DNA of 64,000 bases from Hoeflea sp. (GTDB lineage: Bacteria; Pseudomonadota; Alphaproteobacteria; Rhizobiales; Rhizobiaceae): positions 1-64,000 of the forward strand of contig NZ_JACIYP010000007.1 of the NCBI RefSeq assembly GCF_014359905.1, read 5' to 3'. Under the pieces are notes generated by a model, which saw nothing but the letters and a program-made list of their open reading frames with translations, did no database searches and was not told the DNA's origin. Every line of letters begins with the position of its first letter. The stretch's first letter is position 1. The translations under genes were made by a program, and so were the position numbers. Below, piece by piece: positions 60,139 to 64,000 of the stretch.

Positions 60139-60498
60139 GTCAGCCTCCGTGCTGTTCGTGTCCACGGAACTTTTCAATGCAAGCGCCTTGCCAGTTGCGT
60201 TGCTGCTGGCTTTTCACGGTTTATTAAGGTTTCGCAACAGACGCCGGCAAAACATGTCTCAAAAACGCGTCAAATAATGCCCATATTTAGTGCACTGCCA
60301 TTTTTATGTGCATTAGATAGCCGGGCACATGGGGCCAGGAAGCGGGCCCAATTGTCACGCGCAGCTCGCAAGGTCACCCGAAAGTGCCTTATCCCCAGGG
60401 CGGGCTTGCGTGGAAGCTTTATTTCGCTTCTTATGCTCTCAGGATGAGGTCATCTCGGGTTTCATCCCCACTTGGCAACAAGGAGCTCCGTCGTCCCC
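60139..60498. other. Intergenic control region upstream of urtA, 360 bp
   Basis: No supported gene. It contains the sigma-54-type promoter for urtA and, about 100-120 bp upstream of it, the inverted repeat TGCAC-N12-GTGCA at 60291-60312. That resembles NtrC half-sites, but its spacer is longer than the usual 7 bases. The segment is AT-rich near 60220-60310. The promoter of the divergent peptidase gene must also lie here. Confidence 0.5.
60178..60193 (-). promoter_or_regulatory. Sigma-54 (RpoN) promoter of urtABCDE
   Basis: On the minus strand TGGCAA-GGCGC-TTGCA matches the -24/-12 consensus TGGCAC-N5-TTGCA with one mismatch and exact spacing. Transcription would begin about 25-30 bp before the urtA ATG. 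This fits nitrogen control by NtrC. Confidence 0.75.
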
Positions 60499-61068
60499 AT
60501 GAGCGTACCTCTGTTCTTGCTGGCCGTTCTGGCGGCCATGTTCTCCTTTCTCGCGCCAGCCTTCGCCTCGACCTGGCTGAAGACCGGCAAGGAAACGACG
60601 CGGCCCTATGGTCATGTCGAGTACTGCTCCCGCAAACCCTCCGACTGCCGCAGCCGGTCCACCCGGTCGCAGCTTCCGCCCGCGCGGCTCGATGTTCTGC
60701 GCGGCGTCAATGTCTCGGTGAACCGGGCGATCAAGCCGGTGTCGGACCAGGTAGCCTTCGGACGCAAGGAATACTGGACATCGAAGGCCCGAGCCGGCGA
60801 CTGCGAAGACTTTGCACTGGCCAAGCGCGCCAGACTGCTGAGCAAGGGCTTCAAGCCGTCGCAGCTGCTGTTGACCATGGGGCACAATGGCACTGAACCG
60901 CACGCGGTGCTGGTGGTAAGAACCCGTGACGGCGACTATGTGCTCGACAACCTCGATGACGAGGTCACACCCGTGCAATCGGCGCGCGTGAACTTTCTCA
61001 AGATCCAGTCCCCGGACCACGGCGGCCAATGGCTGCGCATCACCGGCAAGACCGGCCGGGCGCCCTGA
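60499..61068 (+). CDS. Transglutaminase-like cysteine peptidase (BTLCP family)
   Basis: Secreted protein of about 189 residues with a signal peptide (MSVPLFLLAVLAAMFSFLAPAFA). The catalytic triad is visible: Cys in SKARAGDCEDFALAKRARLL, His in EPHAVLVVRT, Asp in DYVLDNLDDEV. Members are predicted periplasmic peptidases often linked to biofilm or adhesin control (LapG-like), but no adhesin or c-di-GMP gene is nearby. The ATG at 60499 follows an AAGGAG at somewhat long spacing (13 bases). Confidence 0.85.
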   Translation: MSVPLFLLAVLAAMFSFLAPAFASTWLKTGKETTRPYGHVEYCSRKPSDCRSRSTRSQLPPARLDVLRGVNVSVNRAIKPVSDQVAFGRKEYWTSKARAGDCEDFALAKRARLLSKGFKPSQLLLTMGHNGTEPHAVLVVRTRDGDYVLDNLDDEVTPVQSARVNFLKIQSPDHGGQWLRITGKTGRAP

Positions 61069-61297
61069 ACGCCACTTCCGTTTTTCCCCTCGCGCCCCGC
61101 AGCATGATTGCGTAAATCGGAATCGATTGAAGGCGAGCATGTGCAGCCGTTTTCAGTGCGGCAGCGTCCTTCGCGGGTTCGATTGAACGCCCGCCGCTGG
61201 AGCCGGGTCAAATTGGCTTTAGTCCCTGCGAATGCCTGTGCTATGGCTCATTGCTTCGCTCGCCTGAACGGCAGTCGAACCGCCGGAGGAGCCGCCG

Positions 61298-62581
61298 ATC
61301 GCCGCCTATCGTTTCATCCACACCGCCGATATTCATCTCGATTCACCGTTGCGCTCGCTGGCGTTGCGCAACCCCGAGCTTGCCGACCTGATCGGCTCGG
61401 CCACACGACAGGCGTTCAGCTCCATCATTGATCTGTGCCTTGACGAGCGCGTCGATGCGCTGCTGGTTGCCGGCGATCTCTATGACGGCGACCAGACCTC
61501 GATGAAGACCGCCCGGTTTCTGGCGGGCGAACTGGGACGCCTGTCAAAGGCCGGCATCCGCACCTTCCTCATTCGCGGCAACCACGACGCGCTTTCCCGG
61601 ATTTCGAAGGAACTGGTGCTGCCGGATCTGGTCAAGCTGTTCGGCGGACGGCCCGAGCATGTGCTGATCGACCGCGGCCCGGGCGAAAAGCCGGTCGCCA
61701 TTCACGGCCTGAGTTTCTCCCAGGCGACCGCGCCCGAAAGCCTGCTGCCGAAATACAGGCCTGCCATCCCCGACACGATCAACATCGGCATGATGCACAC
61801 GAGCCTCGGCGGGGCCGAAGGCCATGACGTCTATGCGCCGTGCAGCCCCGCCGATCTCATCGCCACCGGTTTTAACTATTGGGCGCTGGGCCACATCCAC
61901 AAGCGTTCGGTCATTGAAAATGGTGGCACCATCGTCATGCCCGGCATGCCGCAGGGCCGCGACATCAACGAGGACGGACCCAAATCCGTGACCCTCGTCT
62001 CGATTGCCGACGACGGGACCGTGAGCATCGAGGAGCGACCGACCTCGCGCGCTGAATTCACCCGCGTCAGCGTCAACGCCGAGGGCATTACCGAGTGGAG
62101 CGGTCTCGCGGAGGCCATAAGTGCCGCACTGAGACAGGCGCGCGACACATCCGTGTCGCCCGAGCTTGTGGTGCGCCTGACTTTGTCCGGCGCCACGCCG
62201 CTCGCCTGGCGGATGCGCCGCGATTCTGATTTGCTGATGACGGAAGCCGAGGAACGCGCCGCGCAAGCCGGCGCCACATGGATTGAAAAGCTCGACATCG
62301 GCTGCACGCCGCCCAATACCCATGGCGGTCCCTCGACCGACCCGTTGCATGAACTCCGGGCGTTGATCGGCGCCGCCATTCTCGGTTCGGACGGCTATGA
62401 AACCGCGCTCGAAAGCATCGCTGCGAATCTCCAGACACAGCTTCCCGCAGATTTGCGCGATCTCTTCGGCACGGACGAGGCCGACACACGCGCCGCGCTC
62501 TCACGTATCGCACGCGAGGGGGCAGACGATGTGCTCGCCCGGCTCCAGACCGGTTCGGCATCGACGAGCGAGTCTGCCTGA
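61298..62581 (+). CDS. SbcD-like/YhaO DNA repair metallophosphoesterase with apparent ATC start
   Basis: Mre11-family nuclease subunit of about 427 residues. Metal-binding blocks are FIHTADIHLDSPL at the N-terminus, VAGDLYDGDQTS, IRGNHDALSR, MHTS and LGHIHKRS. The track begins at TTG 61349, which would delete the essential DIH motif. In frame upstream, back to the TGA at 61265, there is no ATG, GTG, TTG or CTG; homology and a GGAGGA seven bases upstream point to the ATC at 61298 (IAAYRFIHTADIH). This is either a rare non-canonical start or an ATG-to-ATC change or error. It overlaps the ATPase gene by one base. Confidence 0.88.
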   Translation: MAAYRFIHTADIHLDSPLRSLALRNPELADLIGSATRQAFSSIIDLCLDERVDALLVAGDLYDGDQTSMKTARFLAGELGRLSKAGIRTFLIRGNHDALSRISKELVLPDLVKLFGGRPEHVLIDRGPGEKPVAIHGLSFSQATAPESLLPKYRPAIPDTINIGMMHTSLGGAEGHDVYAPCSPADLIATGFNYWALGHIHKRSVIENGGTIVMPGMPQGRDINEDGPKSVTLVSIADDGTVSIEERPTSRAEFTRVSVNAEGITEWSGLAEAISAALRQARDTSVSPELVVRLTLSGATPLAWRMRRDSDLLMTEAEERAAQAGATWIEKLDIGCTPPNTHGGPSTDPLHELRALIGAAILGSDGYETALESIAANLQTQLPADLRDLFGTDEADTRAALSRIAREGADDVLARLQTGSASTSESA

Positions 62582-64000
62582 TGCGCCTCAACCGCCTCGA
62601 TCTCACCCGCTACGGCAAGTTCACCGATCATGTCATCGATTTCGGCCCCCCGACCGAGCGCGGCTGCGACCTGCACATCGTCTACGGCCCGAACGAGGCC
62701 GGAAAGTCCACCCTGTTCCACGGCTGGCTCGACCTGCTTTATGGCATTGGCGCGCAGAGCAGCTACAATTTCCTGCACCCCTATCCCACCATGCAGATCG
62801 GCGCGGCGATCGCGTTTGAGGACAAGACGATCGAGGTCATTCGCCGCAAGCGGTCGCAAAACAGCCTGTTTGACGCCCAGGACCAGCCGATTTCCGAGGG
62901 CGTCCTGCTCGCCGGTCTGGGCGGGCTCGACCGCGACGCGTACCGGACCATGTTCTCGCTCGATGACGAAACGCTCGAACAGGGCGGCGAGAGCATCCTC
63001 GCAAGCCGCGGCGATCTGGGCGAACTGCTGTTTTCGGCCAGCGCGGGCCTCGGCGAACTGTCGCAACGGCTGGTCCAGATCCGCGGCGAGACCGAAGACT
63101 TCTACAAGTACCGGGCCCGCTCGGGGCGGCTCGCCGCGCTGAAATCGGACCTGGCCGGGCTGAAGGCCGAGCGCGACCGTCTCGACACCCAGGCGAGCGA
63201 CTATGCCCGCCTGACCAGGATCCACGACGACGCGACGGAGCGCCATGCCGAGGCGAGTTCCCAACGCCAGCAGGTCAGGGCGCGCCTCGCCGCCATCAAC
63301 CGGCTGCTCACCGCGCTGCCGCGCCTGGGAGAACTCGATACGCTGGCCCGACAGATCGAACCCCTGGCCGGACTGCCCGACGCAGCGCCGGAATGGCGCG
63401 ACCAGATCCGCAAGCTGAGCGAGGATGACGCTGCCCTTCAGGCAGGCGGCGCGGCGCTCCACGCGGAAATCGAGCGGCTGACAGCCGACCTCGAAGCCAT
63501 TGGCGTCGATCCCGGCATCCTGTCGCTTCAGGACCGCATGACGGACCTCGACCGGTTGCGCACACGCCACAATGCGGCGGAGGAAGACCTGCCGGATCGC
63601 CGCGCAGCGCTGGCCCGGCTCCAGGGCCGCATCGAGCACCTTCTCACGCAATTGGGGCGGCCCGGCGAGGCAGAGCCCGACCGGCTGCTGCTCGACACCG
63701 CGACAAGTGCCGGCCTGCGCGAGCTTATAGAGGCGCGCACCAGCCTCGACGTGCGCCTGGCGACCGCCCGGCGTGAAGCCGAAGACGCCAGGGCCGCCCG
63801 CGAAGAACTTCAGGCGCAGCTCGGCGATTCCGGCGGGAAGGCGGATGACCTCGCGCCGGACGAACGGCCACGCCGGATTGCCGCATTGGCAAGCCTCGTC
63901 ACAACCATTCTCGGCGAAGATCACGGGCTCAGGCGGCAGGCCGCCCGCCGCGCCATCCCGGACGCAAGGGAAAAATGCGACGCCTGCCTGAATGCGCTGC
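62581..64000 (+). CDS. SbcC-like/YhaN AAA ATPase, N-terminal part (runs off right edge)
   Basis: Partner ATPase of the preceding nuclease; at least 473 residues are in the window with no stop. It begins MRLNRLDLTRYGKFTDHVIDFG, with Walker A YGPNEAGKSTLFHGWLDLLYG near 35, and then long heptad-rich coiled coil from about residue 180 onward (AALKSDLAGLKAERDRLDTQ, DRRAALARLQGRIEHLLTQL). Walker B and signature should lie beyond the edge. This is the Rad50/SMC-like YhaN family, acting with YhaO on DNA ends. Confidence 0.9.
   Translation, partial: MRLNRLDLTRYGKFTDHVIDFGPPTERGCDLHIVYGPNEAGKSTLFHGWLDLLYGIGAQSSYNFLHPYPTMQIGAAIAFEDKTIEVIRRKRSQNSLFDAQDQPISEGVLLAGLGGLDRDAYRTMFSLDDETLEQGGESILASRGDLGELLFSASAGLGELSQRLVQIRGETEDFYKYRARSGRLAALKSDLAGLKAERDRLDTQASDYARLTRIHDDATERHAEASSQRQQVRARLAAINRLLTALPRLGELDTLARQIEPLAGLPDAAPEWRDQIRKLSEDDAALQAGGAALHAEIERLTADLEAIGVDPGILSLQDRMTDLDRLRTRHNAAEEDLPDRRAALARLQGRIEHLLTQLGRPGEAEPDRLLLDTATSAGLRELIEARTSLDVRLATARREAEDARAAREELQAQLGDSGGKADDLAPDERPRRIAALASLVTTILGEDHGLRRQAARRAIPDAREKCDACLNAL

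Follow-up and report, generated by a model that had tools for sequence, protein, structure and literature searches.

A nuclease reading frame that offers no ATG, GTG or TTG ahead of its catalytic motif raises two questions, namely where translation begins and what purpose, if any, such a start serves. The frame lies in a stretch of 64,000 nucleotides from Hoeflea sp. (contig NZ_JACIYP010000007.1), referred to here as the window, the source assembly of which (6.9 Mb, 552 contigs) is fragmented and 8% contaminated. It was compared across a set of 18 Hoeflea genomes and with homologues beyond the genus. The best combined explanation, considered probable, is a genuine start at AUC, a very rare initiation codon, which is served by a strong Shine-Dalgarno (SD) sequence and would give IF3-sensitive synthesis at a low rate.

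The nuclease gene and its neighbours

The yhaO/sbcD-like gene extends over positions 61298..62581 of the forward strand and encodes a metallophosphoesterase nuclease of 427 aa. The calcineurin-like domain of Mre11/SbcD-type metallophosphoesterases is present above the cut-off (PF00149, E 2e-13) and the protein is related by sequence to Mre11/SbcD structures in the PDB. The DxH, GD, GNHD and GHxH motifs, by which the Mre11/SbcD type is recognised, are all found in the window protein and are invariant in the alignment (A1) as D11xH13, G59D60, G94NHD97 and G198H199xH201. The score against the TIGR00619 sbcd model, 61.9 bits against a cut-off of 77.65, leaves the protein outside the SbcD family proper, and PADLOC returned only a very weak match for the nuclease.

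Downstream lies a yhaN/sbcC-like ATPase gene (62581..64000, forward strand; PF13514 AAA_27, E 3e-65), which is cut by the end of the window and whose ATG overlaps the stop codon of the nuclease gene as TGATG. The CTGATGCG overlap is present in oriented loci, although TGATG is not universal, with TGACATG found in L070 and L169. As in the YhaO-YhaN, SbcD-SbcC and Mre11-Rad50 systems, a metallophosphoesterase is followed by a long P-loop ATPase; the Hoeflea case differs in a nuclease that falls below the SbcD cut-off and in a partner with an AAA_27 domain, the adjacent gene that marks a YhaO/YhaN pair. For these reasons the pair is best called YhaO/YhaN-like, which is more precise than SbcD-like and which we take to be the appropriate name from the domain make-up and from general background on such pairs. 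The SbcD-like label of the preliminary description holds in the broad sense but not in that of the SbcD family. On the upstream side a LapG-like cysteine protease gene (60472-61068; PF06035) is found in 15 of 16 Hoeflea loci, and the ATPase gene lies downstream in all 16.

Pairs of this type also occur on mobile DNA. A 10.9 kb contig (G000:C53, locus L250) is a piece of a conjugative element with an S26/TraF-like peptidase, a lytic transglycosylase-like ORF and a DUF3363 relaxase. It holds a second pair of nuclease and ATPase genes, which shares 62% identity with the window copy and likewise has an SD and an ATC, as well as a further AAA_23 ATPase that has weak matches to the defence ATPases LmuB, PtuA and GajA. 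This contig may belong to the window genome or to the 8% contamination. Other relatives (L251-L256) reside on plasmids of Bosea, Bradyrhizobium, Methylovirgula and Aminobacter, several of them typed as conjugative, which suggests that mobile elements carry the pair as cargo in certain lineages.

Position of the start codon

The frame is closed upstream by a TGA (61265..61267, forward strand), after which the codons run ACG GCA GTC GAA CCG CCG GAG GAG CCG CCG to the ATC at 61298, and from there ATC GCC GCC TAT CGT TTC ATC CAC ACC GCC GAT ATT CAT. As the preliminary description had stated, no ATG, GTG or TTG stands in frame between this TGA and the catalytic DxH (DIH) motif, and the first such codon after the TGA, a TTG at codon 18 (61349..61351, forward strand), lies beyond it. 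Moreover, none of the three codons occurs in any of the three frames from codon -1 to codon 15 in the window genome. The same description had placed a GGAGGA seven bases before the ATC, and this SD is indeed found at 61285..61290 on the forward strand, with a predicted anti-SD pairing energy of -9.5 kcal/mol and a spacer of seven bases to the ATC at 61298..61300 on the same strand. The RNA structure around the start is not unusual (z +1.27). Further upstream, a TGCTAT block (61239..61244, forward strand), which in most of the Hoeflea loci recurs some 30-80 nt ahead of the ATC, is possibly a -10 promoter element.

The nuclease gene was found in 17 of the 18 Hoeflea genomes, with only a 20-bit match in G009; the copy in G008 is a fragment without its 5' end, and start codons were hence counted over 16 loci. 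ATC occupies the same column in all 16, and is also present in two named RefSeq records, H. olei (L090) and Hoeflea sp. YIM 152468 (L063), the start regions of which, however, duplicate two already counted among the 16. This comparison of orthologous starts, a check set beforehand, revealed neither an ATG nor any other conserved start in the genus. The AGGA at -11..-8 and the ATC at +1..+3 are identical throughout, with variation at -7..-3, and the sequence upstream of the SD varies across the genus, also in length. Before the ATC the synonymous share of codon differences is only 0.07-0.13, nearly all of the differences being non-synonymous or stops, whilst among the 16 Hoeflea it is intermediate (0.48) in codons 2-4 and reaches 0.94 in codons 5-17. 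Judged from these shares, it is at the ATC that the sequence ceases to evolve as non-coding DNA and begins to evolve as coding DNA. Sequence comparison establishes in this way where the start lies, that it is conserved and that a strong SD accompanies it, and lends strong support to the AUC start that the preliminary description had proposed; the AUC at 61298 is very probably the start codon of the nuclease gene.

Translation could instead begin upstream, at another codon or by way of a frameshift or readthrough, so that the ATC would be an internal isoleucine codon. ATC is the common Ile codon here and, of seven invariant Ile columns, one other besides the start column is ATC in all 16 loci. 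Across the 16 species, however, 172 columns hold a single amino acid and only 20 of these a single codon, hence an invariant ATC would be uncommon, though possible, for an ordinary Ile codon. In L005 and L012 the frame does contain an ATG, six codons before the ATC and with no visible SD, which could be a usable start in those two loci. Nevertheless, no start codon upstream of the ATC is common to the Hoeflea loci, and the frame is closed at varied positions, from 37 to as few as 8 codons before the ATC (the latter in L007 and L010). With these varied stops, and with a preceding sequence that evolves as non-coding DNA and varies in length, an upstream start or frameshift was rejected as improbable.

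Initiation at the downstream TTG (61349) is less probable still. As the first in-frame canonical start of the window gene it is a possible choice for a gene caller limited to ATG, GTG and TTG, yet it is present in only 2 of the 16 species, the first canonical codon after the ATC varying in position between codons 18 and 69 across the loci. Moreover, codons 5-17 ahead of it are strongly purified at the protein level and its product would be without the DxH metal site, and this start was also rejected. That the base at 61300 was wrongly sequenced or assembled, for which the fragmented and contaminated assembly might speak, deserves almost no credence and is excluded by the same base in the genomes of 16 species (16/16 ATC) and in the two named RefSeq records.

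Start codons and Shine-Dalgarno sequences among relatives

Beyond the genus, the start region was read in 193 distinct homologues, the 16 Hoeflea loci included. In 168 of these an ATG, GTG or TTG is located at codons -7 to -4 relative to the HTADIH motif, in most cases a single codon downstream of the column that ATC occupies in Hoeflea. Most alphaproteobacterial relatives of the pair have canonical starts, unlike Hoeflea with its AUC. No canonical start is present there in the other 25, which are the 16 Hoeflea loci and nine others. ATC is found in the same column in four distinct Bosea-type loci (L070, L168, L169 and L175), in L165, in Methylocapsa palsarum (L068) and in L002, a second, mobile-element copy in the window genome; it stands one codon later in a Neomegalonema MAG (L110), and ATT is present in Bosea sp. 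OK403 (L077). Seven non-Hoeflea loci were re-read and contain no canonical codon in the open upstream frame. The start of L002 is less certain than the others because TTG codons lie just before and overlap its SD. In the plasmid of Bosea sp. F3-2 (L254:2492-2520) the annotated TTG directly follows a G-rich, SD-like run, and an ATT three codons further on is better spaced from that run; the annotated start may therefore be wrong.

The same-column ATC loci of other lineages have strong SDs as well, and across the relatives a weaker start codon goes with a stronger SD by predicted pairing. The median anti-SD energy is -9.5 kcal/mol for the Hoeflea AUC starts and -9.4 for other AUC/AUU starts, as compared with -6.5 for TTG, -6.1 for GTG and -3.9 for ATG. 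A rank test of AUC/AUU against ATG gives p 7e-11 with ancestry ignored, and in the tree set a strong SD accompanies 23/25 non-canonical as against 11/90 canonical starts. The difference is confounded by shared ancestry: an independent-pairs test points in the same direction, although only two pairs lie on well-supported branches and significance cannot be reached with so few. The compensation of GUG and UUG starts by a stronger SD is a known trend (PMC5622118), which the present gradient resembles. Among the 61,358 ancestral AUG starts of that study no switch to AUC is listed, with one to AUU and two to CUG, whereas Hoeflea keeps AUC genus-wide.

On a quick tree, in which Hoeflea and Bosea group weakly (support 61), AUC requires about five changes, at least two of them on well-supported branches. 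A single origin, with all AUC rows constrained to one clade, was rejected under a simple model on this tree (p-AU 0.019). The history of AUC would fit either recurrence or an ancient presence followed by repeated loss.

A possible brake on nuclease synthesis

The strong SD, at the right spacing, would position the 30S subunit at the AUC, where fMet-tRNA would form a codon-anticodon pair mismatched at the third base. Because IF3 discriminates against such mismatched starts, synthesis of the nuclease would proceed at a low, IF3-sensitive rate, with a low dose of the YhaO-like protein as the outcome. In loci with the TGATG overlap this low rate would perhaps be passed by coupling to the ATPase, and hence to the whole nuclease complex. 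Genus-wide conservation of the ATC suggests that the codon has been kept as a brake and is not a sequencing error, and a dosage brake of some kind is the somewhat favoured role for the AUC. A conserved AUC brake alone does not prove IF3 control, and IF3 as the specific agent is a tentative proposal, held at rather less than even confidence.

Scarcity and IF3 control are made plausible by the AUU start of infC in the same genomes, by the SD compensation and by the precedent of sigR. The infC start is AUU (ATT) in 18/18 Hoeflea genomes (L143-L160), mostly behind CAGGAG, which suggests that the IF3 autoregulation loop exists in Hoeflea. E. coli infC also starts with AUU, and its recovery here indicates that the homology approach finds a known case. 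The nuclease gene resembles infC, the AUU/AUC start of which is autoregulated by IF3, in having an AUN codon behind an SD with no usable ATG, GTG or TTG, and in the conservation of that codon, here in 16/16 Hoeflea as well as in Bosea, Methylocapsa and others. It differs in that infC encodes IF3 itself and so provides feedback, whereas the nuclease would be an outside target of IF3.

In Streptomyces, infC starts with ATC and the GTC start of sigR has been shown by experiment to be repressed by IF3 (PMC5472188). Like the nuclease gene, sigR functions outside translation, has a non-canonical start and a strong SD, and is the first of an overlapping pair; unlike it, sigR has GTC rather than AUC, encodes a sigma factor and comes with experimental proof, the Hoeflea case being made by comparison. 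In a reconstituted system (PMC10158994), more IF3 gave less full-length product where the third-base pair was weak or mismatched; the pairs in question were formed with engineered anticodons, and AUC with the natural CAU anticodon was not among them.

The same start codon may, on the other hand, serve no regulatory function, with a poor ancestral start having become fixed, a strong SD compensating for it and the two locked in at ordinary expression. This is a minority reading to be taken seriously. A strong SD does go with AUC, as SD strengthening goes with GUG and UUG generally (PMC5622118), and a single start codon may be under weak selection. However, ATC becomes ATG by one substitution that should be easily regained, yet none of the 16 Hoeflea has it; Bosea, Methylocapsa and further lineages have ATC too, and a single clade for all of these was rejected.

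Literature searches on bacterial AUC/ATC start codons returned no report of this nuclease gene. To our knowledge, well-documented natural AUN starts are few, namely infC and pcnB, and a genus-wide AUC on a DNA-processing gene would add to them. Gene callers restricted to ATG, GTG and TTG would misplace such a start and lose the catalytic motif. With the graded SD compensation across its relatives, this start offers a clean natural case for the question of whether genes that have no part in translation use near-cognate starts as brakes on dosage. The broadest form of the proposal, in which IF3 controls the translation of an operon for a Mre11-type nuclease in Hyphomicrobiales through a conserved AUC that has arisen or been kept in several lineages, is less likely than not; if true, IF3 control would couple the availability of a DNA-end nuclease to the condition of the translation machinery.
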